From Bacteriovoracaceae bacterium (GTDB lineage: Bacteria > Bdellovibrionota > Bacteriovoracia > Bacteriovoracales > Bacteriovoracaceae), in contig CANHIY010000002.1 of NCBI GenBank assembly GCA_947461175.1, positions 1 through 62,969 of the forward strand: DNA of 62,969 bases, in the 5' to 3' direction. Below are positions 10,521-29,649 of the stretch, one piece after another. Position 1 is the stretch's first letter, and every line of letters begins with the position of its first letter. The translations under genes and the position numbers were made by a program. The notes under the pieces are model-generated. The model was not told the origin of the DNA, made no database searches, and saw only the letters and a list, made by a program, of their open reading frames with translations.

Positions 10521-10910
10521 ATGTTTCTTCCAATTGAAGGTTCTTTAGATTATCTTGCGGTCCTCATTCTCATCTGCATAGCGCTTGTGATTGCTACGGC
10601 TGTTATTTCCATCAACAAAATATTTGGAACAAGTCCTAGGGAGATAACTCGTAAAAAATACGAGACCTATGAATGCGGTGTGGAGTATGTAGGGGACGCC
10701 CATCAACAGTTTTCCGTCCGGTATTATCTTGTGGGAATTATTTTTCTCATTTTTGACGTGGAAGTTGTGTTCATGTACCCTTGGACGCTTGTCTATCACA
10801 CTTATTTAAAAACTGGCCCTCTCATCCTTCTCGAGATGGGATTATTTTTCATGCTTCTCTTGGGTGGATATTTTTATCTACGCTTAAGAGGTGCCTTGAG
10901 CTGGGATTAG
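10521..10910 (+). CDS. nuoA: NADH-quinone oxidoreductase subunit A
   Basis: '[44 protein letters not shown]'. Confidence 0.97.
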
Positions 10911-10920
10911 GGAGATTAAT

Positions 10921-11529
10921 ATGTCTAAAGACGGAAGTTCATTTTTTTATCCGACTCTTCTTTCTGAGGCTGCCAAGTGGGCTCAAAAGAATTCCCTCTG
11001 GCCTATGCCTTTCGGGACCTCTTGCTGTGGAATTGAGATGATGTCCACTTTGTCATCTACCTACGACCTTTCAAGATTTGGAGCTGAGGTTGTCCGTTTT
11101 TCACCAAGACAGGCCGATATGCTCATTGTTGCTGGAACCATTACAACAAAAATGGCTCCCGTCCTTAGGACCATTTATGATCAGATGCTTGAACCTAAAT
11201 GGGTTATCGCCATGGGGGCTTGCTCTTCTTCCGGTGGAATCTTTGATACCTATTCTGTGTTACAGGGGATTGACGAAATTATGCCTGTTGACGTCTATGT
11301 ACCAGGGTGTCCTCCTATTCCCGAAGGCTTAATTCATGCCATTCTTTATCTTCAGAATAAAATTGAAAAAGGCATGGACCGTAAGCCTGCTGAACGCCCG
11401 TCTTATGATGATGCAATGAATGCTATGACTTACAGAAAGAGTGCTGGGGATATTAAGGCCGATTTTGTGATAACTCCCGAGTATTTAAAACAACAAGAAG
11501 AGCTAAAGACCAAGCAGGAGCAAAAATAA
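10921..11529 (+). CDS. nuoB: NADH-quinone oxidoreductase subunit B
   Basis: '[11 protein letters not shown]', 'MGACSSSGG', '[10 protein letters not shown]' (N2 ligands intact). Confidence 0.98.
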
Positions 11530-12116
11530 TGACGACTTCAATTGCTCCCAAAGCCCCTTATCTTGCCGCCCAGGAAAATTTAAGCAAACGCCTTGTTGAA
11601 AAATATGGAACTGATCGGAAAGTTGAATTTGATAAATTAAATGAGCCCATCATTTGGGCAAAATCACCTGAAGATGCAAAAGTGTTATTCAAATCTTTTA
11701 TGGTTGATGATGTTTTCAAGATGGATTTCCTCTCTGACATCACTGCCTACGATAATAAAGATCATGAGGATGGAAATAAACGTTTCGTTGTGGTCTACCA
11801 GCAGTATTCAACAACTCTTCATGTTCGTGTTCGAATTAAGTGTCTTCTTGATGAAAATGAAGAAGCTTTAACTTTAAGTGATGTGTTTAAGGGAGCAAAT
11901 TGGCTTGAGAGGGAAGTTTTTGATATGTTTGGAATAACATTTAAGGGACACCCGAACATGCGAAGGATCTTAATGGATGAGAGATTTACCGGGCATCCTC
12001 TTCGTAAAGAATATCCTATTAAACAAAGAGAACCATTTAAGGACAATATAGCTTTTCACCTTGGAGCAAATCCTAAATCTATCGATACTCACATTTTAGA
12101 AGGTGAGGAGAATTAA
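11529..12116 (+). CDS. nuoC: NADH-quinone oxidoreductase subunit C
   Basis: 'WLEREVFDMFGITFKGHPNMRRILMDERFTGHPLRKEYP'. Confidence 0.97.
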   Translation: MTTSIAPKAPYLAAQENLSKRLVEKYGTDRKVEFDKLNEPIIWAKSPEDAKVLFKSFMVDDVFKMDFLSDITAYDNKDHEDGNKRFVVVYQQYSTTLHVRVRIKCLLDENEEALTLSDVFKGANWLEREVFDMFGITFKGHPNMRRILMDERFTGHPLRKEYPIKQREPFKDNIAFHLGANPKSIDTHILEGEEN

Positions 12117-12117
12117 A

Positions 12118-13326
12118 ATGGCCGCACACGTTCAAGACCCACACCAGTTACAAGACTTCTATAATCCAAACGTCCTTATAAATTTGGGACCCTCTCACCC
12201 GGCCATGCACGGAACCCTTCGCGTTATGTGTCGAGTCAATGGAGAAACCATTGAGGATGCCAATTGTGAAATAGGTTATCTTCATAGGGCCATTGAGAAG
12301 CTTGGTGAAGAAAAAACTTATCATCAATGGATGGTTTATACTGACAGACTGAATTATTGCTCTGCTCTCAACAACAACATTGCTTACGCCATGGCCGTTG
12401 AGAATATTATGAATATTTCAATAACTGAAAGATGCATGTGGATTCGAGTCATGTGTATGGAGCTTTCCCGAATCATTGATCACATCATTTGTGTGGCCAT
12501 CAATGCTCTTGACCTTGGTGCCATGACAGTCTTTTGGCTCCTTTATCACTGGCGAGAAGAAGCTTACACTATGATTGAATCTATGTGTGGCATGCGCCTA
12601 ACAACAACTTATGCCCGAATTGGTGGGATGAGTTATGACATTCCAGATAATCTTCGGGAACGTCTTTGGAAATTTTGTGAAGATTTCCCTCGAGCACTGG
12701 ATGAAGTGGAAGGTCTTTTAACTTCCAACCGAATCTGGATAGACCGGACTAAGGGCGTAGGAGTCATTTCAAAGGAAGATGCTCTTAAATTTTCCATTAC
12801 TGGACCATGTCTAAGGGCATCAGGTGTAGATCATGATCTTCGAAGAGACCGTCCTTATTATGTTTACCCTGAGCTTGATTTTGATGTCGTAGTCGGCTCT
12901 AACGGAGATGTCTATGATCGTTACCTCATACGTTTAGAGGAGATGAGGCAGTCCATTCGCATCCTTAAGCAGTGTAATGACCGAATGCCTGAAGGTCCTT
13001 TATGGGTTGATGATAAGCGTGTGCAGATTCCTGAGAAAATAGATGTCTACACAAAAATGGAAGTCCTTATTCACCACTTTAAGATTTTTATGGAAGGAAT
13101 TGATGTTCCAAAGGGTGAAGCTTTTACCTGTGTTGAAGGTCCAAACGGAGAGCTTGGTTTTTATATTGTTAGCCGCGGAGGACCCAAAGCTTGGAGAATG
13201 AGGGTCAAGTCGCCTTCATTCATGTTGTTCCAGAGCTTTGAAGCCTCTGTTAAAGGTGGAAAAATTCCAGATGCCGTGGCTCATTTAGGAAGTGTGAATA
13301 TCATTGCCGGCGAATTAGATCGCTAG
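12118..13326 (+). CDS. nuoD: NADH-quinone oxidoreductase subunit D
   Basis: 'NLGPSHPAMHGTLRV', 'IGYLHRAIEKLGEEKTYHQ', C-terminal 'IIAGELDR'. Confidence 0.98.
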   Translation: MAAHVQDPHQLQDFYNPNVLINLGPSHPAMHGTLRVMCRVNGETIEDANCEIGYLHRAIEKLGEEKTYHQWMVYTDRLNYCSALNNNIAYAMAVENIMNISITERCMWIRVMCMELSRIIDHIICVAINALDLGAMTVFWLLYHWREEAYTMIESMCGMRLTTTYARIGGMSYDIPDNLRERLWKFCEDFPRALDEVEGLLTSNRIWIDRTKGVGVISKEDALKFSITGPCLRASGVDHDLRRDRPYYVYPELDFDVVVGSNGDVYDRYLIRLEEMRQSIRILKQCNDRMPEGPLWVDDKRVQIPEKIDVYTKMEVLIHHFKIFMEGIDVPKGEAFTCVEGPNGELGFYIVSRGGPKAWRMRVKSPSFMLFQSFEASVKGGKIPDAVAHLGSVNIIAGELDR

Positions 13327-13336
13327 GAGTAAGAAT

Positions 13337-13861
13337 ATGTTGTCTGAAAGAATTAAAAATACAATCAATGGAATCCGTCATCAATTTCCAACAGAACAGG
13401 CCCTTCTACTGCCTCTTCTTCACGAAATCCAAGAAGAGCATGGTTGGCTATCCATAGATTCCATGAAAGCAGCGGGAGAATTTCTTAATCTTCCCTTATC
13501 AAAAGTTAGGGAAGTCGCAAGTTTTTATACCATGTATAAGCTTGAGCCCTGTGGAAAGGTGGACGTTCAAATTTGTACAAACATTTCATGTTGGCTCAAC
13601 GGGTCCGATAAGCTTGTTTCATGTGCTGAAAAGAAATTAGGCATCAAAACTGGAGAAACAACTAAGGATGGCAAATTTACCCTAAGCCAAGTTGAATGTT
13701 TAGCATCGTGTGGGACAGCTCCCGTCGTGCAGATGAATCAAGACTACTTTGAGAATATTTCAACGGAAGAATTCTCAAAGCTTCTGGACGATGCCAGTCG
13801 AGACCTTGATCAGGGGAAAGTGGTAGGTAAAAGCACTCAAAAACCAGGAGTATGGCCATGA
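13337..13861 (+). CDS. nuoE: NADH-quinone oxidoreductase subunit E
   Basis: '[28 protein letters not shown]...[15 protein letters not shown]'. Confidence 0.97.
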
Positions 13862-15189
13862 TGTATAACAATGAGCACTTTGAGCCAGTCATTACAAAAT
13901 TTGTCAATGAAGCTGGTTCCGAGACGATTGATTTCTATATCAATAAGGAAAACGGTTATAAGGCCTTGGAAAAAGCCCTGAAGATGAAGCCTGCTGAAGT
14001 GGTGGATGAAGTTAAAAAGTCCAACCTTCGTGGTAGAGGAGGAGCAGGGTTCCCAACAGGAATGAAATGGTCCTTTATGCCAGCTAATCCAGTGGATGCT
14101 AATGGCAATCCGAAGCCTAAATATCTTGTTTGCAATGCTGATGAAGGTGAGCCAGGAACATTCAAAGACCGCCTTATCATGACCAAAACTCCTCATAAAA
14201 TGATTGAGGGTATGATCATTGGAGGCCATGCTATTGGATCAAATAAAGGTTTTGTTTATATCCGTGGTGAGTTTCATAAAGAGATCCGCCTTATGCAAAA
14301 GGCTATTGATGATGCCTATGCAAGAGGGTTTCTTGGAAAGAATATTCTTGGTTCTGATTTTCATTTTGATCTCGTGATTTATAAAGGTGCTGGTGCCTAC
14401 ATCTGTGGAGAAGAAACAGCACTTCTTAATTCATTAGAAGGTAAGCGAGGGGAACCAAGACTAAAGCCTCCTTTCCCTGCTCAAGTGGGGGCCTTCGGTA
14501 TGCCTTCTTGCGTGAATAACGTAGAAACATTTGCAGCTGTTCCCTACATCATCTCTGAAGGGGCGGAAAAATATGCAAAGATGGGAACTGAACGAGCAGG
14601 TGGAACACGCTTGATCGGAGTCTCTGGTCACGTAAATAAACCTGGAGTTTATGAATTCCCCATGAACCTATCAATCAACGAAATCATAGAGATTGCTGGT
14701 GGAGTTAAGGGCGGGAAACTCAAAGCAGTGATTCCTGGAGGAGCATCTGCTCCCATGTTACGGGCCGATGAATGTGACGTGAAAACCGATTATGAATCCC
14801 TTGCCAAAGCAGGTACGATGGCCGGTTCGGGTGGTATCATCGTGATGAATGATACGGTTAATATCGTCGAGGCCACTTATACTCTTTTAAAATTTTATGA
14901 ACACGAATCCTGTGGTCAATGTTCCCAGTGCCGTGAAGGTTCCCATTGGCTGGCCCGCATGTTTAAGCGGATTTTAGATGGAGGGGGAACCCAGGATGAT
15001 CTTGATTATGTCGCAAAAATTTGTGGCAATATGGCCGGGCAAACAATTTGTGCCTTTGCTGATGCTGTCACTGGCCCAGCACTTTCCTCAGTGAAAAAAT
15101 TTAGAAATGAGTTTGAAGAACTGATCCGAAACGGTGGGCTTCATGGAAATAAAAAACAAGTTAATGTAAATGAAGGTGTCCATGTCTAA
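13858..15189 (+). CDS. nuoF: NADH-quinone oxidoreductase subunit F
   Basis: '[17 protein letters not shown]', '[12 protein letters not shown]'; overlaps nuoE stop. Confidence 0.97.
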
Positions 15190-16723
15190 TAATGTTCATG
15201 AAATCATTAAACCTAAAGAAGATCTGAACTACTCTTCTGAAAAAAAGCCTATCCACTCAGATTCCTCAGTAGAGGCTAAGCCTCTACCGAAAGTGACAAT
15301 AGACGGTAAAACCTATGAGTTCAAGCCTGGTGATACGATCATGCAGGTTGCAGAACGATATAAGGTCCATGAGGAAATACCTCGCTTCTGTTATCACCCG
15401 GCTATGCCCATTGCCGGAACCTGCCGTATGTGCACGGTGGAGGTAGAAAAAGCACCAAAGCTTATGACCTCTTGTTCAACACCGGCCGCAGACGGGATGA
15501 TCGTTCATACTAAATCTGAAAAGGTCTTGAAGTCTCGAACAGGAGTGATGGACTTTCTTCTGACGAATCATCCTCTTGATTGCCCAGTTTGTGATAAAGC
15601 AGGGGAGTGTGAACTTCAAGATTATAACTTTGAATATGGTCCTTCACACTCAAACTTCAAAGAAGAAAAAAGAGTGTACGAGGATGCTACTACCAAGAAG
15701 CTATCCGATCAGGTCACTCTAAACATGAACCGATGTGTACATTGTGAAAGATGTGTCCGTTTTACTGATGATGTTACAAAAACAAATGACCTCGTTATGG
15801 TCAATCGTGGCTGGCACAAAGAACTTGATGTTGCTGATGAAAGAGGCCTTTTTAATGATTACCAGGGATGTTTAACTGATTTCTGTCCCGTGGGTGCTCT
15901 TACCTGGAATGATTTTCGTTTCAAAAAACGTTCGTGGTTTTTAGATAAAAAAGCCTCTGTCTGTGACAGATGCTCAAAAGGCTGTAACATTGAAGTTCAT
16001 TCAGACCGGGATGTGGTTTACCGTTACATACCAGTTTACAACGAATTGGTGAATGGCCACTGGATGTGTGATGAGGGACGTTCTTCCTATAACGATCTTA
16101 TGGATCCTCAGAGAATCATTTCTCCACTTTTAAATCACAACAACTCGATGACCTCAACATCCCTAGAGACTGTCATTGGTGAAGTAAAAAAAGTTCTCAA
16201 AACTGCTGCATCTATTCAGGTTGTCGTAGGTACAGATGCAACCCGTGAAGAGGCAGCACTTCTAAAAGAAAAATCAACGCTAGCTTTTGGTAAACCGGTC
16301 ACAATTAACTTTTACAATGGTCATATTCAAACCTCTCAGGAGGATAAAAAGCTTGATCACATGCTGCGTATGACCGATAAAACACCAAACACCCGGGGTG
16401 TTGAGGAAACAGGTCTGGCACCTCTTCCGAATGGAGAGCTGTCATCTGAGGTTGCTATTATTTTCAGAAATGGTCGTGCTGGCATCCCAAAAATGAACCC
16501 ACATCAAAAAGTGATTCTGTGGGGAGTTTGGAATATTGAAGAAGTTAAAAATCTTCCAACTAATAATATCATCGCCGTCATTCCTGGACTTGCTACCATT
16601 GAAAAAGAGGGAAGTTTTAAAAATACTGATGGAGTGGTTCAGAAGTTTCATCCGGCCATTCAACACCGCGGAGGAGCAGTCACTGTTCACCATGTTGTTG
16701 GTTTAATGACTAATAATAATTAA
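15182..16723 (+). CDS. nuoG: NADH-quinone oxidoreductase subunit G (short form)
   Basis: [2Fe-2S] and [4Fe-4S] motifs: '[17 protein letters not shown]', '[17 protein letters not shown]', '[12 protein letters not shown]', 'CDRCSKGCN'. Confidence 0.95.
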
Positions 16724-16735
16724 GAAGTGAGTATT

Positions 16736-17803
16736 ATGGAATATTTTGATTTCATTCAGTTGATGGCAAAAATCCTCCTGGTGGTGGGGGTTAGTCTAGG
16801 TGTCGTTCCTGTCATGGTGTGGTTTGAACGAAGAGGTGCTGCTTGGATGCAGGGACGAGTTGGTCCTAACCGCGTTGGTCCCTTTGGTCTTCTTCAGCCT
16901 CTAGCGGATGTTGTGAAATTTATTATGAAAGAGGATTTTGTTCCAAAAAATGCGAACAAGTTTTACTACTATCTTGCCCCTCTCATTGCCTTGATTGCTC
17001 CGCTTTGTGCTCTGTCTGTGATTCCTTTTGGGTCCAAGGCGATTGTTAATGGTCAAGAAGTTGTCCTCCAAATTGCTCAAATGGATTCTGGTGTTATTTT
17101 TATTCTGGCATTTGCTGGTTTAGAAGTTTATCCCATCATTCTTGCTGGCTGGGCATCGAATAACAAGTACTCGGTTCTAGGAGCTCTTCGAGGCTCTTCG
17201 CAAATTGTTTCCTATGAAATTTCCATGGGACTAGCACTCCTCTCTATGTTGATTGTTTATGGAACTTTTAATCCCCATGAAATGGTCGCTTGGCAGTCTG
17301 AGAACTACTGGGGAGCCTTGATAAATCCTTTTGGAGCACTTGTTTTTCTTATCTCTATTTTTGCTGAAACTAACCGGCTTCCCTTTGATCTTCCGGAAGG
17401 AGAATCTGAAATCGTTGCGGGTTATCACCTTGAATATGGGGCCATGAAGTTTGCACTGTTCTTTATGGCGGAATATGTGGCCATGATTATGGCCTCAGCG
17501 CTTATTTCAACTCTGTTCTTTGGGGGTTACTCCCTTCTTCCTGGAATGGGCACTCTCGTTTCAATGATCTCATCTCAGTTTGGTTTTGGTGAAGTTGGTG
17601 TGACGAACGTCACAGCTGTCTTCCAATTCATATCTCTATGTTCGAAAGTTGGATTTTTCATGTTCCTCTTTGTATGGATCAGATGGACTCTACCGCGTTT
17701 CCGTTTTGACCAATTAATGGACCTTGGATGGAAAATACTGTTCCCACTTTCTCTTATTAACCTCGTCGTTGTAACCGTTATGGTTTACTTCCTTAATCAA
17801 TAG
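16736..17803 (+). CDS. nuoH: NADH-quinone oxidoreductase subunit H
   Basis: 'WFERRGAAWMQGRVGPNRVGPFGLLQPLADVVKF', 'ETNRLPFDLPEGESEIVAGYHLEYG'. Confidence 0.97.
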   Translation: MEYFDFIQLMAKILLVVGVSLGVVPVMVWFERRGAAWMQGRVGPNRVGPFGLLQPLADVVKFIMKEDFVPKNANKFYYYLAPLIALIAPLCALSVIPFGSKAIVNGQEVVLQIAQMDSGVIFILAFAGLEVYPIILAGWASNNKYSVLGALRGSSQIVSYEISMGLALLSMLIVYGTFNPHEMVAWQSENYWGALINPFGALVFLISIFAETNRLPFDLPEGESEIVAGYHLEYGAMKFALFFMAEYVAMIMASALISTLFFGGYSLLPGMGTLVSMISSQFGFGEVGVTNVTAVFQFISLCSKVGFFMFLFVWIRWTLPRFRFDQLMDLGWKILFPLSLINLVVVTVMVYFLNQ

Positions 17804-17812
17804 AGAGGCACC

Positions 17813-18328
17813 ATGGGAACTATAAACGTTTCTAAAAAGTATACGGCTAAAGAAAGAGCATACCTTCCTGCAATCCTTATCGGTATGAAAATTACGATGA
17901 AGAGATTCATAGAGGGATTCTTTTTTAGAAAGCACTTTACGATTCTTTATCCAGAAAAAAAGAGGGATTACTCTGATAGATTTAGAGGGGCCCATTTCAT
18001 TTCAGTGGATGAAAACAAAACGGAGAATTGCACCGCATGCTTTCTTTGTGAGACTGTTTGCCCTGCTGAATGTATTCACATCGTGGCAGATGAGAGGGAA
18101 GAAGAAACAAACATTTATGGAGTCAAAAAAGAAAAGAAACCCTTGAGTTTTGATATTGATCTCTTGCGCTGCTGTTTTTGTGGTTTCTGCGAAGAGGCTT
18201 GTCCTAAAGACGCCATTAAACTTTCTACTAACTATGAAATGGCAACTTATTCTCGTGATGAGGCCATTGTTGATCTTGATCAGCTTAAACGTCCTATGAA
18301 TGGCCGTCATGAAAAGAAGGATAACTAA
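17813..18328 (+). CDS. nuoI: NADH-quinone oxidoreductase subunit I
   Basis: Two 4Fe-4S motifs 'CTACFLCETVCPAECI' and 'CCFCGFCEEACPKDAI'. Confidence 0.96.
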   Translation: MGTINVSKKYTAKERAYLPAILIGMKITMKRFIEGFFFRKHFTILYPEKKRDYSDRFRGAHFISVDENKTENCTACFLCETVCPAECIHIVADEREEETNIYGVKKEKKPLSFDIDLLRCCFCGFCEEACPKDAIKLSTNYEMATYSRDEAIVDLDQLKRPMNGRHEKKDN

Positions 18329-18852
18329 TGAGTCCAGTTATTTTAATTCTCGCTGTTATTTCTGTGATTCTTGCCATAACGATGCTTTTTGCCAAAAATC
18401 CTATCACTTCAGCTCTTTGTCTTTTGGGAGTGCTCCTAATGACAGCTGGTATTTATGGATTAATTGGAGAGCACCTCATCGCTACCATTCAGTTGGTTGT
18501 TTATGCTGGGGCCATCATGGTTCTTTTTATTTTCTCCATCATGCTTTTAAATCTCACTACTGAATCTGAAGATCATAAAAAAGAGCCACTTTTGTATGTC
18601 TCGGCCATTGCTTTAGGGGGGGGAGTCCTGACCTTCATCATTTTGGCCCTGAATGAGCATTTTCTAAAGCATCCGATGGATTATTCTTTCGGAAAATTTT
18701 CACCGGAAGTGATTGCTCAGCTTGGTGGAAATTCTAAAGTGCTCTCCCATGCCTTGTTCAGTCAATTTTATGTCTCTTTTGAAGTTATCTCTCTTGCCCT
18801 TTTAATTGCCATAGTGGGAGCTGTTGTTCTTGCTAAAAGAAAATTTGATTAA
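18328..18852 (+). CDS. nuoJ: NADH-quinone oxidoreductase subunit J
   Basis: 'IGEHLIATIQLVVYAGAIMVLFIFSIMLLNL'. Confidence 0.95.
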   Translation: MSPVILILAVISVILAITMLFAKNPITSALCLLGVLLMTAGIYGLIGEHLIATIQLVVYAGAIMVLFIFSIMLLNLTTESEDHKKEPLLYVSAIALGGGVLTFIILALNEHFLKHPMDYSFGKFSPEVIAQLGGNSKVLSHALFSQFYVSFEVISLALLIAIVGAVVLAKRKFD

Positions 18853-18861
18853 GGTATTTAT

Positions 18862-19164
18862 ATGACAAATGATGTACTGGTTCAGACACTTGCTGCGGTT
18901 CTTTTTACTATTGGAATCCTTGTGGTGCTTTTAAGAAGAGACACCATTATGGTTCTTATGGGTATAGAGCTGCTTCTTAATTCCGCTAACTTGTCTTTGG
19001 TTGCTTTTTCAAAGTCAGCAGCAATGATTGAAGGACAACTTCAAGTTTTCTTTGTCATCACCATTGCTGCAGCAGAGTCGGCCATTGGACTTTCAATCCT
19101 GATCAATCTCTACCGGAACTTTGGATCCATTAAAACTCAAAATGCTTCTACTCTTAAAGGATAA
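18862..19164 (+). CDS. nuoK: NADH-quinone oxidoreductase subunit K
   Basis: 'MGIELLLNSANLSLVAFS...QLQVFFVITIAAAESAIGLSIL'. Confidence 0.96.
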   Translation: MTNDVLVQTLAAVLFTIGILVVLLRRDTIMVLMGIELLLNSANLSLVAFSKSAAMIEGQLQVFFVITIAAAESAIGLSILINLYRNFGSIKTQNASTLKG

Positions 19165-21143
19165 TGAACGTGGAAACTATGCAATCTTCTCTCCCACTTC
19201 TCATCTTAATTTCCCCCTTGATCGGTTTTTTTATTAATGGGGTTATTTTGCCACTGAAACTAAAAGGATTTGCTAAAACTGATCCTCACACCGCAGGCTA
19301 TACGGCAACCTTTTTTATTGGGCTTTCATTTGTTTTGGCCTGTGCTGCTTTCTCCAAATTAACTGGTGTAGGAGGGAATCCCTCCCTCGTTTCATTTTGT
19401 TTTGAGTGGTTTAACTTTGGTGGACTTAACATTCCCTTTGAACTCCGTATGGACAAGCTCTCTGGAATACTTGTGATGATTATCACAGGTATTGGAACCT
19501 TGATTCATCTTTACTCAACAAGTTATATGCATGATGAAGAGTGCGTAGGTCGTTATTTTTCCTACCTCAATCTTTTTTGCTTCAACATGCTTCTTCTTGT
19601 CCTAGGTAATAATTTGCCCCTCTTATTTTTTGGTTGGGAGGGAGTAGGTCTGTGCTCCTACCTCCTCATTGGCTTTTGGTATACTGATACTGAAAAGGCC
19701 AATGCCGGTAAGAAAGCTTTTATTGTGAACCGGGTAGGGGACCTTGGTTTTCTAATTGGGATGTTTCTTCTTTTTAGAGAACTTGGAACTTTAAATCTTG
19801 TTGAAATTAATACTCTTCTCTCTAATCCTGAGGTGACAACCAGGATCATGCCTTCAGTTACCCTTATCTGTCTTTCTCTTTTTGTGGGGGCAACGGGCAA
19901 GTCTGCTCAAATTCCTCTCTATGTCTGGCTTCCAGATGCCATGAGTGGTCCTACTCCAGTATCTGCTCTCATCCACGCCGCTACCATGGTGACGGCCGGT
20001 GTTTATATGATTGCTCGCCTAAATCCACTCTTTGAGCTTTCTCCAGTTGCTTTAAGCGTGATCGCTCATACTGGAGCCTTGACTGCCTTATTTGCTGGAA
20101 CAATTGCTGTGGCCCAAACAGATATCAAGAAGGTTTTGGCCTATTCCACTGTTTCTCAATTAGGATTTATGTTCCTTGCCTGCGGAGTTGGTGCCTATCA
20201 GACTGCTGTCTTTCACCTCATGACCCATGCTTTTTTTAAAGCACTTCTCTTCCTAGGATCGGGTTCTGTGATCCATGCTTGTTCTGGTGAGCAAGATATG
20301 ACAAAGATGGGTGGGCTTAAAAAGTATCTGCCTCACACTCACTCTACGATGCTTGTTGGATCCCTTGCTATCTCTGGGATCCCCTTCTTCTCAGGATTTT
20401 TTTCCAAAGACGAAATCCTTTACTCCACAATTGCACTTCCTGGTGGGGTTTCCTACCTTTTCGTCGTGGGAGTCCTAACTGCTATACTCACCGCTTTCTA
20501 CACTGGTAGGATGATGAGCCTCACATTTTATGGACCTGAAAAAATGTCTCATGATGTAAAACATCATCTCCATGAATCTCCTGGGCTTATGACTTTTCCT
20601 CTTTATGTTCTGGCCTTTTTAGCAGCATTTGGTGGTTTTCTTGGAGTTCCTCACCTCATGGGAGATTTCTTGGGTCACATGCCGCATTTCCTCTCTGAGT
20701 GGCTAAACCCAGTTGTTCCGGCCAAGCATCTTCCTTTAGTGGGAGTAAAAATTCCTCTCCATGAAGGAGTGGTCATGGTGGGCTCATCAGTTATTGCCTT
20801 AGCTTCATTTATTGCAGGAATTAAGGTCTTTAAGAAAATTGAGTTCATCTCTGATGCTTTCTCAGGACTTCTTCCTTTGCAAAAACTCCTCTCACATAAA
20901 TACTACATCGATGAACTCTATTCATTAGTTATTGTTACTCCCATCAAAAAGATCTCATCTTTTGCCGGAGAGGTTTTTGATAAACTTTTTATCGACGGAG
21001 CAGTGAATGGTCTAGGTCGTGGAGTACGTTTAGTGGGAGCGAGTTTACGTACTATTCAAACAGGTGATCTTCAGACCTATGGATTGCTTATGCTTGGTGG
21101 AGTTCTTCTCGTTGTTCTTTTTATTTTTAAAGTTTTGGCCTAA
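19164..21143 (+). CDS. nuoL: NADH-quinone oxidoreductase subunit L
   Basis: 'FFGWEGVGLCSYLLIGFWY', 'LPDAMSGPTPVSALIHAATMVTAGVYM'. Confidence 0.97.
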   Translation: MNVETMQSSLPLLILISPLIGFFINGVILPLKLKGFAKTDPHTAGYTATFFIGLSFVLACAAFSKLTGVGGNPSLVSFCFEWFNFGGLNIPFELRMDKLSGILVMIITGIGTLIHLYSTSYMHDEECVGRYFSYLNLFCFNMLLLVLGNNLPLLFFGWEGVGLCSYLLIGFWYTDTEKANAGKKAFIVNRVGDLGFLIGMFLLFRELGTLNLVEINTLLSNPEVTTRIMPSVTLICLSLFVGATGKSAQIPLYVWLPDAMSGPTPVSALIHAATMVTAGVYMIARLNPLFELSPVALSVIAHTGALTALFAGTIAVAQTDIKKVLAYSTVSQLGFMFLACGVGAYQTAVFHLMTHAFFKALLFLGSGSVIHACSGEQDMTKMGGLKKYLPHTHSTMLVGSLAISGIPFFSGFFSKDEILYSTIALPGGVSYLFVVGVLTAILTAFYTGRMMSLTFYGPEKMSHDVKHHLHESPGLMTFPLYVLAFLAAFGGFLGVPHLMGDFLGHMPHFLSEWLNPVVPAKHLPLVGVKIPLHEGVVMVGSSVIALASFIAGIKVFKKIEFISDAFSGLLPLQKLLSHKYYIDELYSLVIVTPIKKISSFAGEVFDKLFIDGAVNGLGRGVRLVGASLRTIQTGDLQTYGLLMLGGVLLVVLFIFKVLA

Positions 21144-21155
21144 GGATTTGTACAC

Positions 21156-22697
21156 ATGGAAACTTCTTGCTTGTTGACCTGGATTATTTTTACACCGCTT
21201 ATCTTCGGATTTATAGTGGCTCTCATGCCTCAGAGTCTTGAGTCAAAATTCAGAAAGCTTGCATTAGCACAAACGTTAGTCAATGCCTTATTGGCGACTT
21301 ATCTCTATGTTCATTTTGATGGTAGTTCCTACGCTTCACAATTTGTTCACCTGGTTAGCTGGTTGCCAGATTGGGGAATTAATTATTCAGTTTCCATTGA
21401 TGGAATAAGCCTTCCTCTTGTGATGCTTACGGCCTATGTGGCCCCAGTTGCCATTTTGGGAACTTGGCCTGATATCCACCACGGTGGTTTGAAAAAAGAA
21501 AAGTTTTTTGTCATATGTCTTATGGCCCTTCAGACTGGAATGTACGGAACTTTTTTATCATCCGATATTTTTCTTTTTTATTTTTTCTGGGAAGTTGTTC
21601 TTATCCCAATGTTCTTTATGATTGGAATTTGGGGTGGTAAGGACCGCATCTATGCCACTGTTAAGTTTTTTATCTACACAATGATTGGTTCTCTTCTTAT
21701 GCTGGTTGCCATTTTCTGGATCCTTAAAACTGGTTCTGAGCAGTTTGGGGCCCCTACTGCAGATATGGGAAAGTTGTCTGAATTAGCATTTTCGTTTGAC
21801 GGGACATCTCTTGGTTCTGCACTGATGTCACCCCAGTCCCTTTTATTCTTCGCTTTTGCTTTGGCCTTTGTGATTAAAGTTCCGATGGTTCCTTTTCATA
21901 CATGGCTTCCGGATGCCCACGTTCAGGCACCAACAGTTGGTTCGGTTTTTCTAGCCGCAGTTCTTCTTAAAATGGGGACCTATGGTCTCATGAGAATAGC
22001 TATTCCGTTTTTTCCAGAAGCAGCTCATTATTTCTCGTCTGTCTTTATACTACTTGGAGTGATCGGTATTATTTATGGGGCTTTTTGTGCTCTCGCACAA
22101 TCTGACTTTAAAAAGCTTGTTGCTTATTCCTCTGTTTCTCACATGGGATACATCATGGTCGGTCTTTTTGCTTTCCAAAAAGTCGCTATTGCTGGCTCAC
22201 TTTACCAAATGATTAATCATGGTATTTCGGCTGGAGGATTATTTTTAATTGTTGGTTTTCTCTACGAAAGACTCCACACGAGGAATTTAAATGAATTTGG
22301 AGGACTTGCTAAGGTAGTACCTTTAATGGCCATAGGTTTTATGATCATGACCCTGTCTTCAGTGGCCCTTCCTGGATCCAATGGATTTGTTGGTGAATTT
22401 CCCATACTTCTTGGGGCTTTTCAGACTCAACCCACTTTTGTTCTGTTCGCTGGAACAGGAGTGATCCTTGGTGCAATTTATGCTCTTAAAGCTTATCAAT
22501 TGGTTATGCTTGGACCTACAACCAGGTCTGATCTAGCCACCTTGAAAGACTTGAATTTAAAAGAAGTTATTTCTCTATCAATTCTTACGATTTTTGTTTT
22601 TGGGATTGGTTTCTTTCCTAAAACTTTCTTTTGGAAGTCTGATGCTTCTTTAGAAAACTACGCAAACACTCTAATTCAGAAAGTGAGTTCAAAATGA
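21156..22697 (+). CDS. nuoM: NADH-quinone oxidoreductase subunit M
   Basis: 'FYFFWEVVLIPMFFMIGIWGG', 'TWLPDAHVQAPTVGSVFLAAVLLKMGTYG'. Confidence 0.97.
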   Translation: METSCLLTWIIFTPLIFGFIVALMPQSLESKFRKLALAQTLVNALLATYLYVHFDGSSYASQFVHLVSWLPDWGINYSVSIDGISLPLVMLTAYVAPVAILGTWPDIHHGGLKKEKFFVICLMALQTGMYGTFLSSDIFLFYFFWEVVLIPMFFMIGIWGGKDRIYATVKFFIYTMIGSLLMLVAIFWILKTGSEQFGAPTADMGKLSELAFSFDGTSLGSALMSPQSLLFFAFALAFVIKVPMVPFHTWLPDAHVQAPTVGSVFLAAVLLKMGTYGLMRIAIPFFPEAAHYFSSVFILLGVIGIIYGAFCALAQSDFKKLVAYSSVSHMGYIMVGLFAFQKVAIAGSLYQMINHGISAGGLFLIVGFLYERLHTRNLNEFGGLAKVVPLMAIGFMIMTLSSVALPGSNGFVGEFPILLGAFQTQPTFVLFAGTGVILGAIYALKAYQLVMLGPTTRSDLATLKDLNLKEVISLSILTIFVFGIGFFPKTFFWKSDASLENYANTLIQKVSSK

Positions 22698-24172
22698 ACC
22701 TGATTGATGTTTTTCCCTTAACAGCCCTTGGAGCTTCTGATTTTCTAAATCTTGGGCCAGTTTTGATTCTTACCTTTGGTGCAGTACTAAGTATTCTTTT
22801 GGGTACTCATAAAGATAAAGGTCATTATTTGGCTTTTGGGATGTCCCTTGCATCAGTTCTTGCTGCCTTTTTAGTCAATTACGCCATGGTTTTTTCAAGT
22901 GATGTAAGTATTTTGGGTGAAACACTTATTTTTAGTCCTTTTACGAAAACCCTCTCTCTTATGCTTTTAGTCTTTTCGGGAATTGCTATTTTTCTCACCT
23001 TTGGGCATGACAAGAAAGAAGGATTGTTAGCAGAAATTTATGGTTTGATTCTCTTCTCGGTGACAGGCATGATCCTTATGGTGAGCACTCAGCACCTTTT
23101 GTTCATGTTCATTGCCTTAGAGATAATGTCTCTTGCGATTTATGTCATGGTGGCCATGAGGCGAACCAGTCGTTTTTCTGCTGAGGCAGGTTTAAAGTAT
23201 TTTATTCTTGGAGGCTTAGCCTCGGCCTTGTTTTTATATGGTTCATCCTTAGTTTTCGGAGCAACTGGATCTTTTCAACTTGAATCAATCAGCTACTTCC
23301 TCTCTTCTCATCCAAATCCGTCATACATTTACTACGTTGGTCTGGGTCTCATTTTAACGGCCATGCTTTTTAAGGTTGGAGCAGTCCCTTTTCATGGGTG
23401 GGTACCGGATGTTTATCAGGGTGCCTCCACCAATATAACTGGCTTCATGGGAGCAGCTGTTAAATTTACGGCTTTTATGGCCCTGACAAAAATTTCACAG
23501 CATTTAGTCTTTGTCCCTCAAGTCAGTGGCCTATCTTGGTTTCAAAATTATGTATGGCTGATTGCTGCTGCATCGATGATCTACGGAAACTTTGTTGCGA
23601 TTTCACAAAATGAAATAAAGAGGATGCTCTCTTTTTCCACCATCGCTCACACAGGATATTTACTTCTCGGTCTTTGTGCTATGAATGTTGGGGAGACTTC
23701 TTCTGAAGATCTAATAATTTACTTGTTTTTTTATGCTCTCTCTAACCTTGGGGCCTTCGCAGTAATTTCACAGTTTGAAGAAAAAAATCAAAAAGATCTT
23801 ACTCTTGACCAGATTGCTGGAATAGGACTTAAGCATCCTTTACTGGGAGCTTTCTTCACCTTGTTCCTTCTCTCTATGGCAGGTATTCCTCTTACTTCAG
23901 GATTTATAGGAAAGTACGGCCTTTTTAGCTCCGCCGTTAATTCTGGAGAGGTGCCACTTGTTGTCATTGCTGTCCTCACTTCCGTCGTTTCAGTGTATTA
24001 TTATCTTAGAGTGATTATTTATATGTTCATGAAAGATAGTGCTGGTGAAGAGGTAACATTTCAGGGTTTAAAGGGTGCAGGGTTAGCAGCTTTCATCTCC
24101 GCCGTTGCAACACTTCAATTTGGACTATTTCCCCGTGCCATCATTTCGTTTGTTAAAATGATTTCAAAATAA
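22694..24172 (+). CDS. nuoN: NADH-quinone oxidoreductase subunit N
   Basis: 'ALEIMSLAIYVMVAMRR', 'GAVPFHGWVPDVYQGASTNITGFM'. Confidence 0.96.
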   Translation: MNLIDVFPLTALGASDFLNLGPVLILTFGAVLSILLGTHKDKGHYLAFGMSLASVLAAFLVNYAMVFSSDVSILGETLIFSPFTKTLSLMLLVFSGIAIFLTFGHDKKEGLLAEIYGLILFSVTGMILMVSTQHLLFMFIALEIMSLAIYVMVAMRRTSRFSAEAGLKYFILGGLASALFLYGSSLVFGATGSFQLESISYFLSSHPNPSYIYYVGLGLILTAMLFKVGAVPFHGWVPDVYQGASTNITGFMGAAVKFTAFMALTKISQHLVFVPQVSGLSWFQNYVWLIAAASMIYGNFVAISQNEIKRMLSFSTIAHTGYLLLGLCAMNVGETSSEDLIIYLFFYALSNLGAFAVISQFEEKNQKDLTLDQIAGIGLKHPLLGAFFTLFLLSMAGIPLTSGFIGKYGLFSSAVNSGEVPLVVIAVLTSVVSVYYYLRVIIYMFMKDSAGEEVTFQGLKGAGLAAFISAVATLQFGLFPRAIISFVKMISK

Positions 24173-24180
24173 GAGGACAC

Positions 24181-24444
24181 ATGATTGCTAGAAAAATTAC
24201 ATATCTTGGAAACTTTAACGATGACGTGTTTGGTACAATTTTTGACATTACAAGAAAGAATGAAATCACTGGTATTGTAAAAAAGATAAGTGAAAAACAG
24301 GTTGAGCTTAGTCTTGAGGGTGATCCCTCTCAAATTAAGCTTATTCAGCACCAGATTGAGAGGAAGGTTAAACCCTATATTCAAAATAAGAATGTGGAGC
24401 AAATTCCCTATCAATACTATCAAGGAATCAGCCTTTCCTTATAG
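24181..24444 (+). CDS. Small protein after nuoN, possible degenerate acylphosphatase-like fold
   Basis: 87 aa; 'GIVKKISEKQVELSLEGDPSQIKLIQHQIERKV' resembles acylphosphatase core; 8 bp after nuoN. Confidence 0.5.
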   Translation: MIARKITYLGNFNDDVFGTIFDITRKNEITGIVKKISEKQVELSLEGDPSQIKLIQHQIERKVKPYIQNKNVEQIPYQYYQGISLSL

Positions 24445-24568: not shown

Positions 24569-24655
24569 TGGTGCCCAAGACGAGACTCGAACTCGTACGG
24601 GTTATTCACCCGAGGGATTTTAAATCCCTTGTGTCTACCATTCCACCACCCGGGC
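24569..24655 (-). tRNA. tRNA-Leu(UAA), CCA encoded
   Basis: Reverse strand GCCCGGGTGGTGGAATGGTAGACACAAGGGATTTAAAATCCCT...GAGTTCGAGTCTCGTCTTGGGCACCA; 7-bp acceptor, long variable arm, anticodon loop TTTAAAA. Confidence 0.95.
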
Positions 24656-24673: not shown

Positions 24674-24702
24674 ATGATGTTATGTTATTGAGATTATGTC
24701 AA
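24674..24702 (-). promoter_or_regulatory. Candidate promoter for tRNA-Leu overlapping the start of the divergent lipoprotein gene
   Basis: Minus strand TTGACA - 17 nt - CATCAT, about 20 bp upstream of the tRNA. Confidence 0.45.
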
Positions 24703-26172
24703 TTGAAAAGCCTTGGGATTCTTTCACTGCTTGTTATTATTTTGCCGTCCTGTTCAATGTGGCGGGGAGAGAAGGGACAGAAGGAAATTTTAACCACTTA
24801 CAATAATCTGTGGTTTAAAACAAACCTTCATCATGCTTTGGTTGATAGTCAAGGCCAGCCATTACCCCACTTATTTTTTGACCTGAACTCAGAGTATGTA
24901 GCTTCTCAAAATGAAGTGACTGTTCTTATTTCCACTCCTGAAGGTTCTAAGGATGGATACGACATTGACTTAAGTTCCGGCCAAAGATTCTATACTCATA
25001 CTTACTGTAAACAGGATGATATTTGGAAATCCTATAGTGGACCACTTTATCGGCCCCCTTATTCAATTGGCTACATTCCCAAAGTTCTTGATCAATTAGG
25101 AGGACCTCAGAAGGTTATTGTATGGTCAACTTCTGATAGTATCCCAAAAACTTATAAAACTAATTATCAAAAAGTCCGTTTGGTGGGTGCTTTTGTTGAA
25201 CAGAACTGTCTTATTGGTAATTGTATTGGAAAAAATAATTGGCTATCTCGGCTTGTATTTGTTGGTGTGGATGTAAATGATCCTGATTTAGCATTTGTTT
25301 CATCAACAACTGAATTTAAAAAAGTTATAGATTGGGAAAAATCAAAGGCGCATTTGGCAAATATTGATGGTCACAATACCATTGGAGAAAATTTTTATCC
25401 ATCGAAACGAATCGGTGAATTATTGGATTTTCATGAGGCTTTTAAGTATTTCAAGAAAAGATCAATTATACTCACCAATAAGGAATTAAAAAACATTCAG
25501 AAAGGGTGTCACGATCTCTATGATCTTTTTCTGGAGGAGGTTGGTAAGACTTCACCCGAGGATCAACCAGCAACAAATATAGATGAATTAAAGGAAAAAC
25601 TGAAACTTAGGGCCTTGATGAAAAAAAAGAAACTACCCGTTGGATTTGCACAAAGGCTAGCTCACTTTACGGGGAAGTATTTTAAAGAGATCACAACCTG
25701 TGAAAAATTCATCTACCACGGTAATATTAATAATAGTCAAGACAGCTATTGGTTTTTGAGTTATCTAGGGATTTATTTTAAATTACACAAAGAAGGTTTT
25801 TATTTCGATTGTAAAAACCAAAGTTGGCGAAAGAATGAACTCAATGAGGATGGGAAGCTTATTTTTAATTTACCAGAAGATATAAAAAAATGCAGCGAAA
25901 GAGATCTAGACCTCGCCATGAATTATCTTCCTAACTTTTTAGAAGGTTTAAAGAGCAGCGAGCATATGTATAAGTTTATAGATTATGATAATCAATCTTA
26001 TGGGACTCATAATAAAATATACGCTTGGGTAAGAATAAAAAATCCTCGTTTTGATTGCAGAAAGAATCCTAACCAAGAGATTGTTAAGAAAATGTCTGTT
26101 GCACCTGAAGATGCCAACTGGAAACCAAGGCAAGTGAAAGATATAAGTGATGAACTAAAGATCATAGAATGA
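24682..26172 (+). CDS. Lipoprotein of unknown function, first gene of the Nuo-like accessory operon
   Basis: 496 aa, lipobox 'IILPSC'; stop overlaps the next start (ATGA). Confidence 0.7.
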   Translation: MLLRLCQLKSLGILSLLVIILPSCSMWRGEKGQKEILTTYNNLWFKTNLHHALVDSQGQPLPHLFFDLNSEYVASQNEVTVLISTPEGSKDGYDIDLSSGQRFYTHTYCKQDDIWKSYSGPLYRPPYSIGYIPKVLDQLGGPQKVIVWSTSDSIPKTYKTNYQKVRLVGAFVEQNCLIGNCIGKNNWLSRLVFVGVDVNDPDLAFVSSTTEFKKVIDWEKSKAHLANIDGHNTIGENFYPSKRIGELLDFHEAFKYFKKRSIILTNKELKNIQKGCHDLYDLFLEEVGKTSPEDQPATNIDELKEKLKLRALMKKKKLPVGFAQRLAHFTGKYFKEITTCEKFIYHGNINNSQDSYWFLSYLGIYFKLHKEGFYFDCKNQSWRKNELNEDGKLIFNLPEDIKKCSERDLDLAMNYLPNFLEGLKSSEHMYKFIDYDNQSYGTHNKIYAWVRIKNPRFDCRKNPNQEIVKKMSVAPEDANWKPRQVKDISDELKIIE

Positions 26173-26564
26173 AAAAAGATAAAAAAATTATTTTGAATAT
26201 ATTTAACTTTTCCCATCCTCTTATGCATACCGAAGTTTTTTCACTACTTGGTAGTAAGTATGCTCATGCTCTACCTTTCGAATGGTGTTTGACTTCAGAC
26301 TACCATGAAGCACATGTCATCCTTTGGGATGGAGTGATGACTCTTAAAAATAAATTATTTGTAGAAAAGATTATAGATGATATCAAGTCTGATAAGATTC
26401 TTCTTTTGATAGGTGAGTCTTGGACTCTTTTGAAAGATCGTTCTGTCATTAAACTTTTAGATTTTGAAAATTTAAATTATGTTAATCTTCCTGGATGGAA
26501 TGTTTTACCGGAAGAGATTTTGGCTGCCTTAGAAACCTGCCATAAGAAGTTGAAAAATGTTTAA
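26169..26564 (+). CDS. NuoB-like 20-kDa subunit paralog lacking the cluster-ligand cysteines
   Basis: By-eye alignment: FSHPLMHTEVFSL vs [21 protein letters not shown] vs [31 protein letters not shown] vs [23 protein letters not shown]. Confidence 0.65.
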   Translation: MKKDKKIILNIFNFSHPLMHTEVFSLLGSKYAHALPFEWCLTSDYHEAHVILWDGVMTLKNKLFVEKIIDDIKSDKILLLIGESWTLLKDRSVIKLLDFENLNYVNLPGWNVLPEEILAALETCHKKLKNV

Positions 26565-28182
26565 GTGGAAAGAATTTGATAAGACTAAAGAGATCCTTTC
26601 TCATTCAGCTCATAACCAATATAGAGATGAGTTAGGTCAGCATCATCTTTATTTAAGACCCAATGCTCTTTTAGAGTGGATCGAGTTTTTAAAAGATGAT
26701 TTGGATTTTTTTACTCTTGTGGATCTTGCCGCTTTGAGTGTGAATCGGGATAAATTTGAAGTCATTTATCAGCTTCTCAATATGGGAACACATCAAAGGC
26801 TTAATATCCATATTGATCTTAACCGAGGGGAAATTCTCCCATCTCTTCAACACTTTTTTTTGAATGCAGATTGGATGGAACGAGAACAGGGTGAAATTCT
26901 TGGTCTGACATTTGATTTAAAAAAAGAACCCTTAATCTTACCAGAGCACTCTCATGAGACGTTGTGCCAGGCAGATGTATCTTTTGATGACTTTTATCAG
27001 GATGAGCCATACTCAGTACCTAAGCTACGGTTTAATCCCAATAAATCGGAGGCTCCTTACCCTGAGGAGAGTTACAAATGGCAAAGGTTTGATTTATTTT
27101 CGCCACAAAATCAAGGACATTTTGAATCATTCATTTGTTTTGATCCAGTTAAAGTTGTTGATTTAAAAATTAAAATTGGTTTTCATCATCAGGGCTTTGA
27201 GAAGCTTTTGCAATCGAAGGATATCTTTCAAGTATTACATCTTGTGGATAAGATTAATTTTACAAGTGCGCCAAGTCTTTCTATCGCCTGGGCGAAAACG
27301 ATAGAGGAAATATTCCGAATCAAAATCCCAGAGAGGGCACAGGCGATTAGGATTGTCTTGCTCGAACTTGCCCGAATTTCAAACCATCTCACGGTTGTAG
27401 CTTCAATTTGTAAAGAGTTGGATCTTCCAGAGTCGATTCTGTTCTTAAATTTACGAGAGAAAATCTTCGAATTATTTGAAAAATACTCCGGTCATCGACA
27501 TAGTGTAAATGTTGTCAAAATGGGAGGTATGAGAGAAGACTTGCCTCACGGATGGATCGTTGAATATCAAACAGTTTCAGGGATGATTCTTAAAAATCTG
27601 ATAATTATTCATAATTCTCTCATTGGACAGAGAAAATTTAGATCATCCCTTGAGGGAGATTCTGTCAATGCTCAGTCAATATTACAATGGGGTGTAAGTG
27701 GCCCAGCCATGAGGGCCGCTGGACTGAATTTTGATCTTAGAAAATCTCAACCCTTTTATTTTTATCATGAGATTGATTTTGATATTCCAGTGGGGATAAA
27801 CGGGACAGCCTATGACCGGTATCTCATTAGATACGAGGAAATTTGTCAAAGCTTAAGAATCACGACTCAAGTTATTGATAACTTACCGCTAGGAGAAATC
27901 ATTCCACAATCGTTTAATGAGAATTATTTTGAACTCATTAAGGTTTTTAGTCACTTGGAGCAAACTGGAGTTTGGCATTATAATTCTATTGAATCTCCCT
28001 CTGGAGAAGCTGGATATTTGGTAAAAATAAATGAAGGAATTCTTTTGGAGAGGATTAAAATAAAAACACCAAGTTACTCTCTGGCCCAGGCATTACCAGT
28101 ACTTCTTAAAGGCTTAAAGGAAGATCAGGTGGCAGCAAATATCGCAAGCTTAGGAATCTCTCGATGGGAAATGGATCGCTAG
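26557..28182 (+). CDS. NuoC-NuoD-like fusion (complex I/group 4 hydrogenase large-subunit-like), no NiFe cysteines
   Basis: N-term 'LNADWMEREQGEILGLTFD' like NuoC 'ANWLEREVFDMFGITF'; C-term 'IGFHHQGFEKLLQSKDIFQ', 'WGVSGPAMRAAGLNFDLRKSQPFYFYHEIDFDIPVGINGTAYDRYLIRYEE' like NuoD; ends 'RWEMDR'. Confidence 0.9.
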   Translation: MFKWKEFDKTKEILSHSAHNQYRDELGQHHLYLRPNALLEWIEFLKDDLDFFTLVDLAALSVNRDKFEVIYQLLNMGTHQRLNIHIDLNRGEILPSLQHFFLNADWMEREQGEILGLTFDLKKEPLILPEHSHETLCQADVSFDDFYQDEPYSVPKLRFNPNKSEAPYPEESYKWQRFDLFSPQNQGHFESFICFDPVKVVDLKIKIGFHHQGFEKLLQSKDIFQVLHLVDKINFTSAPSLSIAWAKTIEEIFRIKIPERAQAIRIVLLELARISNHLTVVASICKELDLPESILFLNLREKIFELFEKYSGHRHSVNVVKMGGMREDLPHGWIVEYQTVSGMILKNLIIIHNSLIGQRKFRSSLEGDSVNAQSILQWGVSGPAMRAAGLNFDLRKSQPFYFYHEIDFDIPVGINGTAYDRYLIRYEEICQSLRITTQVIDNLPLGEIIPQSFNENYFELIKVFSHLEQTGVWHYNSIESPSGEAGYLVKINEGILLERIKIKTPSYSLAQALPVLLKGLKEDQVAANIASLGISRWEMDR

Positions 28183-28183
28183 T

Positions 28184-28549
28184 ATGATTTTGAATAGACG
28201 CTTTTATGCTAAAATATCTTTGTTCCGGAATTTATGGAACTCCCATAGGATGAGAAAACTTATTGGAAAGAATGTCTTTAAAGCTTTTCAACTTTCTAGG
28301 GTTCATTTGCCGAGTAACATCTATTCCTATTCTTCTCGCTTGAAAAGAATTCCTCAATTCACGGGGAACAAAGAACTTTTGGCAAACTGGAAAGATGCAA
28401 AAAAATGTGAGAGGATCTGTCCAACTGGTGCAATTACGATTACTACTGATTCATTTGAAATTGACCCAAATGGTTGTATTGCCTGTGGACTCTGCCTTGA
28501 TTTTGCACCTCAAGGGATTCTGGAAGCTTCCCAGGAATTTTTGGGATGA
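28184..28549 (+). CDS. Ferredoxin-like protein retaining one [4Fe-4S] cluster set
   Basis: 'KKCERICPTGAI...NGCIACGLCLDFAPQGIL': second CxxCxxC intact, its CP partner present; other cluster lacks ligands. Confidence 0.8.
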   Translation: MILNRRFYAKISLFRNLWNSHRMRKLIGKNVFKAFQLSRVHLPSNIYSYSSRLKRIPQFTGNKELLANWKDAKKCERICPTGAITITTDSFEIDPNGCIACGLCLDFAPQGILEASQEFLG

Positions 28550-29649
28550 ATTTATTTGTGAGGACTTCTATTATGATTAAGCTTTTAACTTTTTTTCTTT
28601 TCCTTTATGTCATATCTTTCTTTTTAATTAACTCTACCTTGGGACACTATGGTTTATTTGGGGAGGTTATTATTAATCATCCCATCCTATTTTTTTCAAT
28701 TTACTCTGTTTTAATGTCACACTTTACAATTACTTCTATGAGTTTATCATTTCATCGTTACCATACTCACAAAGGTGTTATCTTAAACAAGTGGATTGAT
28801 ATTCCGATGCAGGTCTGGCTCTGGATGGTGACCTCCTTGTCAAAAGTTGATTGGGTAGCTGTGCACATCTGGCATCATGCCCATTCTGACCAGGAAAAAG
28901 ATCCTCACAGCCCTCTCCACAAAGGCATCTGGCACGCACTTTTCCTGGGAGTGTTTGATTACACAAAAGCAAAATCTAGCCCTGAAGTGATTAAGATAAA
29001 AAAAACCATTCCTGTTAATAAGATTGAGGCCTATATTTTAGATCACTCGTTTACAGGTCCAGTGATTTTAAGTGTAGTGACCTTAATTCTTTTTGGACCT
29101 ATCTGGGGAGCATTAGTCGCTGTTTTGAATTTTATGATCTCACCAATTTTTGCAATAGGTGGAGTCAATGCTCTTGCACATTGGTATGGCTACCGAAATC
29201 ACAGTACTTGCGATAATAGCAGGAACCTTGGTTTTGTCTTTCCATTGAATTTCATTATATGTGGCGAGCTTGACCATAATAACCATCATGCTCACATGCG
29301 TTCCTGTTCTTTTAGGCACCGTTGGTTTGAATTTGATATTGGGTTCATTTATTTAAAGATTCTTTCTTTCTTTAATCTTGCAACACTGAAAAATGTTTAT
29401 TCTCCTGCCACCTTGAAACAAGAATTTGCTTTGAGGTTTATAGAATTAATTGAAAAAGACTATAGGTTTAAAAAGCGTGTAGAAGAACTTTCTCGTGAAA
29501 TGAATCTTAATTATCTGGAGTTAAAAACTAAAATTGAAGAATATTACTGCGGAAAAAAGGTAAGGTTGGAAAAGTCTGTGCTTGAGTTCATGGAAGAGGT
29601 CAAAAGGACTTATCTTGCAAACCAAAAACTCAAACTTTCTTATGTTTGA
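28546..29649 (+). CDS. Membrane fatty-acid (acyl-CoA delta-9 type) desaturase
   Basis: His boxes 'HRYHTH', 'HIWHHAH', 'HNNHHAH' with hydrophobic segments. Confidence 0.9.
   Translation: MNLFVRTSIMIKLLTFFLFLYVISFFLINSTLGHYGLFGEVIINHPILFFSIYSVLMSHFTITSMSLSFHRYHTHKGVILNKWIDIPMQVWLWMVTSLSKVDWVAVHIWHHAHSDQEKDPHSPLHKGIWHALFLGVFDYTKAKSSPEVIKIKKTIPVNKIEAYILDHSFTGPVILSVVTLILFGPIWGALVAVLNFMISPIFAIGGVNALAHWYGYRNHSTCDNSRNLGFVFPLNFIICGELDHNNHHAHMRSCSFRHRWFEFDIGFIYLKILSFFNLATLKNVYSPATLKQEFALRFIELIEKDYRFKKRVEELSREMNLNYLELKTKIEEYYCGKKVRLEKSVLEFMEEVKRTYLANQKLKLSYV

Follow-up and report, generated by a model that had tools for sequence, protein, structure and literature searches.

Why should DNA that encodes a complete respiratory complex I carry, shortly behind it, a second and partial set of complex I-like genes between a lipoprotein gene and a desaturase gene? 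This question is raised by a 62,969-nucleotide stretch of DNA from a Bacteriovoracaceae bacterium (the whole stretch analyzed, hereafter the window), in which five ORFs lie in a row on the plus strand: the first two overlap by 4 bp and the second and third by 8 bp, the third and fourth are 1 bp apart, and the last two again overlap by 4 bp. The initial annotation had described these five genes behind a nuoA-N operon, and an ORF check confirmed the genes, their coordinates, their overlaps, and the preceding operon, with an acylphosphatase-like ORF and a tRNA-Leu gene lying in between. The features are as follows:

10521-24172, plus strand: canonical nuoA-N operon (complete complex I), upstream; outside the system and used as the comparison standard
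24181-24444: small acylphosphatase-like ORF between nuoN and tRNA-Leu (Pfam E 3e-5)
24569-24655, minus strand: tRNA-Leu, UAA anticodon, divergent to the LP1 operon
24674-24702, minus strand: sigma-70-like promoter of the tRNA-Leu gene, TTGACA-17-CATCAT (consensus match), overlapping the annotated LP1 5' end
24682-26172, plus strand: LP1, lipoprotein predicted to be exported, with the fold of family-I pyrophosphatases and a separate C-terminal part; probable start TTG 24703
26169-26564, plus strand: B2, NuoB-derived, with L, M, S, and W in place of the N2 ligands CC/C/C
26557-28182, plus strand: CD2, NuoCD fusion (NuoC domain aa 32-122, NuoD domain aa 185-541)
28184-28549, plus strand: FD2, NuoI-derived ferredoxin with 4Fe-4S model matches
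28546-29649, plus strand: DES, DesA-type membrane fatty-acid desaturase, a lineage-specific neighbour; probable start ATG 28573

Identity of the genes and loss of redox sites

The interval between nuoN and LP1 contained no Rfam family beyond the tRNA, and a promoter/terminator scan returned no more sites than in shuffled sequence, with the TTGACA-17-CATCAT element facing tRNA-Leu among its better matches. Upstream sequence comparison revealed the tRNA-Leu end and the upstream element ahead of LP1 in most genera, and a TGTCAA conserved across genera is the reverse of the tRNA-Leu promoter -35 box in most of them. Because this conserved TGTCAA is the reversed -35 box of the divergent promoter, LP1 probably starts at TTG 24703. 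The idea that the conserved stretch CQLK is an N-terminal signal of LP1 was rejected for the same reason, since its conservation in the annotated N-terminus is explained by the overlapping tRNA-Leu promoter.

LP1 is characterized by an invariant lipobox Cys and eight further invariant Cys, and a Pfam search of the window protein gave no match. Its AlphaFold model (pLDDT 86.6) matched family-I pyrophosphatases (Foldseek E 3.2e-9, probability 1.00), in agreement with the comparison of the LP1 profile to pyrophosphatase (hhalign E 1.2e-7). The N-terminal domain thus has the fold of the soluble inorganic pyrophosphatases (PF00719); in contrast to these, LP1 is predicted to be exported and lipidated, has a Cys-rich C-terminal part, and lacks equivalents of D65/D67/D70. 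The catalytic triad D-G-D-P-x-D is replaced by L139/G141/K144 in the window, and none of 25 aligned LP1 sequences has Asp at the three catalytic columns, which makes an active pyrophosphatase unlikely. A homologue from another family of the phylum (locus L141) scores above the Pfam pyrophosphatase cut-off and retains the catalytic motif as DGDPVD. Encoded at 899-1993 of that locus, it is itself a predicted exported lipoprotein, combining an intact inorganic pyrophosphatase motif with an LP1-like C-terminal part.

B2 gave no match in a Pfam search. Its genus profile aligned with canonical NuoB at E 2.6e-7 (hhalign), compared to 0.013 or worse for eight unrelated control families, and the top PDB matches of its AlphaFold model (pLDDT 80.7) in Foldseek were complex I NuoB chains. 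With these controls, the profile and fold tests rejected a chance or mis-annotated NuoB. All four N2 Cys are missing in 13 of the 13 loci of the window's lineage (g1) covered by a residue census. CD2 scores above cut-off for both complex I Pfam domains; its quinone site is replaced, with the His motif GPSHP reading DLFSP and the Tyr motif DRLNY reading DKINF, motifs to which we take His224 and Tyr273 of E. coli NuoD to map. These two are the quinone-site residues of the E. coli protein (PMC8357420). An origin of CD2 from a [NiFe]-hydrogenase or group 4 large subunit was discarded, as its translation holds no CxxC nickel-ligand motif; its match to NiFeSe_Hases reached only E 0.1. FD2 is related to NuoI (hhalign E 1.4e-11), with Cys79, 98, 101, and 104 fitting one [4Fe-4S] cluster ligand set and the other set broken. 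The ferredoxin of the initial annotation is therefore refined to a degenerate NuoI with one of two ligand sets, and its description of a stripped-down Q-module without membrane or NADH-input subunits is supported.

Distribution, decay series, and selection

In the following, g denotes a genus, G a genome, and L a locus; the genomes are mostly MAGs, so that absence calls can fail. The LP1 family was matched in 110 of 129 genomes of the class, all belonging to one family, and outside the class two matches (E 2.6e-22 and 7e-4) were obtained among 369 genomes of the phylum searched. Most of the named LP1-bearing relatives are MAGs of Bacteriovoracaceae, Bacteriovorax, or Halobacteriovorax. When relatives were checked for co-occurrence of all five genes, the order LP1-B-CD-I recurred in most genera examined, usually turned towards the same neighbour genes, but the linkage to a desaturase was not general. 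The conserved core is LP1-NuoB-NuoCD-NuoI in most genera of one Bacteriovoracaceae-type family, and not the Nuo trio with a desaturase.

The composition of the cluster varies around this core. Operons of g4 and g29 also carry NuoE, F, and G, giving a full peripheral arm (B-CD-E-F-G-I), and in G004 an LP1-type arm with E, F, and G is accompanied by two unlinked membrane arms. At the other end, LP1 and a CD-like gene are all that remains in g8, g22, g23, and one g17 locus, and LP1 stands alone, without Nuo genes, in g39, g41, and G018; G072 has B-CD at the syntenic place without LP1. Across the family, LP1 is the most persistent component. An apparent loss of FD2 in G081 reflects an assembly gap of Ns beside an otherwise readable FD2. 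Other membrane arms are present in the window genome, whereas several cluster-bearing relatives have none detected: G028, G026, G123, G019, G119, and G125 keep the LP1-type cluster and gave no match for NuoA, NuoH, NuoJ, or NuoF, with the B, CD, and I genes read directly in the first four of these six. The module is therefore independent of the complex I membrane arm, at least there, and selection evidently maintains complex I genes in genomes where no membrane arm was detected.

In a NuoD tree, all 60 sampled LP1-type CDs fell to the same side of a branch supported at 100/99, and nearest to canonical and CI-b NuoD were the full-arm members of g4 and g29 and intact members of g27, g20, and g45; long branches make the root and deep branch order of this tree uncertain. 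The residue census arranges the family by degree of loss. N2 (CCCC) and the quinone motif are both intact in L034 and L156, N2 is intact with an altered quinone motif in, e.g., L036, L037, and L041, and N2 is gone with both NuoI ligand sets present in L051, L128, L129, L124, L125, and L043. A single NuoI ligand set is left, N2 being gone, in g1 (loci with readable NuoI), g10, and g43, and L039/L068 have no NuoI ligand set, with CPxC/ECxxC instead. The NuoI homologues of these last two loci (L039 10438-10749 and L068 8298-8609), with their CPxC...ECxxC arrangement, are zinc-ribbon-like rather than ferredoxin-like. The locus L156 (G100:C103), a g4-type B-CD-E-F-G-I arm with only a broken LP1 fragment upstream, probably lies on a contig that contaminates a g1 MAG.

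Omega was about 0.04-0.15 for LP1, B, CD, and FD/I in comparisons with unsaturated dS (dS was saturated in several pairs), which places these genes, by substitution pattern, under purifying selection. Their frames are intact and omega, where it could be estimated, is far below 1, so they are not pseudogenes, and pseudogene decay was rejected. Judged by profiles, fold, and tree, the cluster and the complex I Q-module share common descent, and the sequence evidence derives LP1-B2-CD2-FD2 from an operon in which the gene of a pyrophosphatase-like lipoprotein preceded those of the peripheral arm of a second complex I. By the same sequence comparisons, the window lineage shed the NADH module, the quinone site, the N2 ligands, and one NuoI ligand set, yet stayed under selection. 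The cluster is thus real: what is left of a second peripheral arm of complex I, maintained by selection throughout the family and sharing its operon with a pseudo-pyrophosphatase lipoprotein.

The desaturase linkage and competing readings

DES has three intact histidine boxes (HRYHTH, HIWHH, and HNNHH), as is common to DesA-type desaturases. Its match to the DesA model NF049918 (E 1.4e-59, 202 bits) does not reach the curated cut-off of 400 bits, so that by this model DES is a relative of the DesA family rather than a member, and its genomic tie to a Nuo-derived cluster sets it further apart as lineage-specific. As most homologues within the genus align from residue 9-10, DES probably begins at ATG 28573, in which case its 4-bp overlap with FD2 may merely reflect the choice of start. 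DES orthologues occur in 35 genomes and adjoin the cluster on the same contig in 30 of them, directly 3' of it in g1, g5, g10, g43, and g46. Many other genera have the trio without an adjacent desaturase. The downstream slot is variable and envelope- or lipid-flavoured: in G018, the gene after LP1 encodes a desaturase from a different subfamily (21% identity) and the trio is missing, and in g16 and g3 a glycosyltransferase-like gene takes this place. Such a slot makes a connection of LP1 to the envelope possible; it does not support a scaffold that generally supplies the desaturase with electrons.

In that scaffold, one of the roles suggested in the initial annotation, FD2 would be docked on B2-CD2 and pass electrons to DES. 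The tight linkage in 30 of 35 genomes and the intact histidine boxes fit such a role, as does the finding that the sampled linked genera keep at least one [4Fe-4S] set in FD2 while the NuoI homologues of the two genera with the cluster but an unlinked DES have no Fe-S ligand set at all, a contrast drawn from seven genera that are not independent. However, the linkage is broken both ways: G080, G081, G087, and G091, of the window's own genus, still have LP1 and the trio, cluster cysteines included, but gave no desaturase match at 1e-10, and G073, G075, and G105, from three genera, carry DES without LP1. Moreover, N2-less modules with [4Fe-4S] ligands and no adjacent DES exist in g3, g11, and g38, the checked neighbours of unlinked DES genes show no recognisable redox gene, and the cluster has no NADH input module. 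With the N2 and quinone residues lost as well, electron delivery to the desaturase fails as a general rule, and we regard it as unlikely. An alternative peripheral arm that docks on the complex I membrane arm and yields an isoform of the complex is plausible for near-intact relatives such as G004, and split complex I loci are normal in the Bacteriovoracaceae-type family; the window version, however, is without N2 and quinone-site residues, and clusters persist in genomes without a NuoA, H, or J match, so that this reading is very improbable here.

The other role suggested at the outset, a link to the envelope, stands as far as the persistence of LP1 is concerned, and a link of LP1 to the lipid or envelope enzyme downstream is possible, given the neighbours in G018 and g16/g3. 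In its strongest form, LP1 and the downstream enzyme would constitute the functional unit, and the Nuo-derived genes between them would be a slowly eroding relic. LP1 without Nuo genes in g39, g41, and G018, the exchange of the downstream enzyme, and the repeated loss of Nuo parts are in line with this, but purifying selection on B, CD, and FD/I, G072 with its syntenic B-CD in the absence of LP1, and most LP1 clusters having no lipid enzyme downstream argue against it, and we consider it quite unlikely.

The reading that we think probably applies is that LP1-B2-CD2-FD2 is a repurposed remnant of a second complex I, tied to LP1, for which we favour a non-respiratory, structural or regulatory role. 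B2, CD2, and FD2 would continue to form a small complex in the cytoplasm that resembles a Q-module but is unable to reduce quinone, and the remaining cluster of FD2 could serve as a sensor, a stabiliser, or a one-electron relay. This complex would be functionally linked to LP1 in the envelope, with the desaturase as a lineage-specific passenger or client and presumably not the reason for the trio's existence. LP1 is predicted outside the cytoplasm and the trio within it, and the core operon encodes no transmembrane partner; the functional tie is therefore suggested by operon conservation only. A wider version, in which the Q-module became throughout the family a cytoplasmic scaffold that is non-redox (or has a single cluster) and acts together with the pseudo-pyrophosphatase lipoprotein, is tentative and somewhat less than evenly probable. 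If true, relatives of predatory bacteria would have an operon whose enzymes are dead but which has gained a new function, one that may define the lineage.

Relation to known systems and further loci

The closest known system is the Q-module of respiratory complex I (NuoB/NuoCD/NuoI, including fused NuoCD), with the same folds and the same gene order B-CD-I. The window cluster differs from it by lacking N2 ligands, the quinone His/Tyr, the NADH module, and the membrane arm, by its single NuoI cluster ligand set, and by the lipoprotein in the operon. The 11-subunit complex I-like enzymes of the Fpo or Desulfitobacterium type likewise have a B-C-D-I input side and no NADH module, but keep a membrane arm (PMC11238625); the LP1 module has none and can occur in genomes where no membrane arm was detected. 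A survey of Nuo distribution counts species with 'incomplete' complex I (PMC12361115), and a search of its text gave no mention of Bdellovibrio or Bacteriovorax. In the library searched for literature on complex I of Bacteriovorax/Halobacteriovorax, on orphan Q-modules, and on exported pseudo-pyrophosphatases, we found nothing on this system. The findings matter for automated 'NADH dehydrogenase' annotation and for the reuse of modules of large complexes. The family includes intermediates between a peripheral arm that apparently still works and a remnant free of clusters, and in this natural series one can ask what a Q-module does after losing its redox chemistry.

Regarding other loci in these genomes, complex I is commonly split in the Bacteriovoracaceae-type family into a NuoB-C-D-I locus and an unlinked A-H-J-K-L-M-N locus (L003, L167-L175, L176, and L177), and the window's genome holds such a split system besides its complete nuoA-N operon. 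In G004, L159 and L160 carry two complete membrane-arm sets (A-H-J-K-L-M-N) in tandem without peripheral-arm genes. Both g47 genomes have an ORF of 2568 residues directly 3' of LP1-B-CD-I (L048 410-8116 and L053 703-8409). Finally, L046 7974-10858 (G040) comprises a near-canonical orphan NuoB-CD-I without LP1 or membrane genes, the proteins of which share 82/78/70% identity with the window's Nuo proteins.
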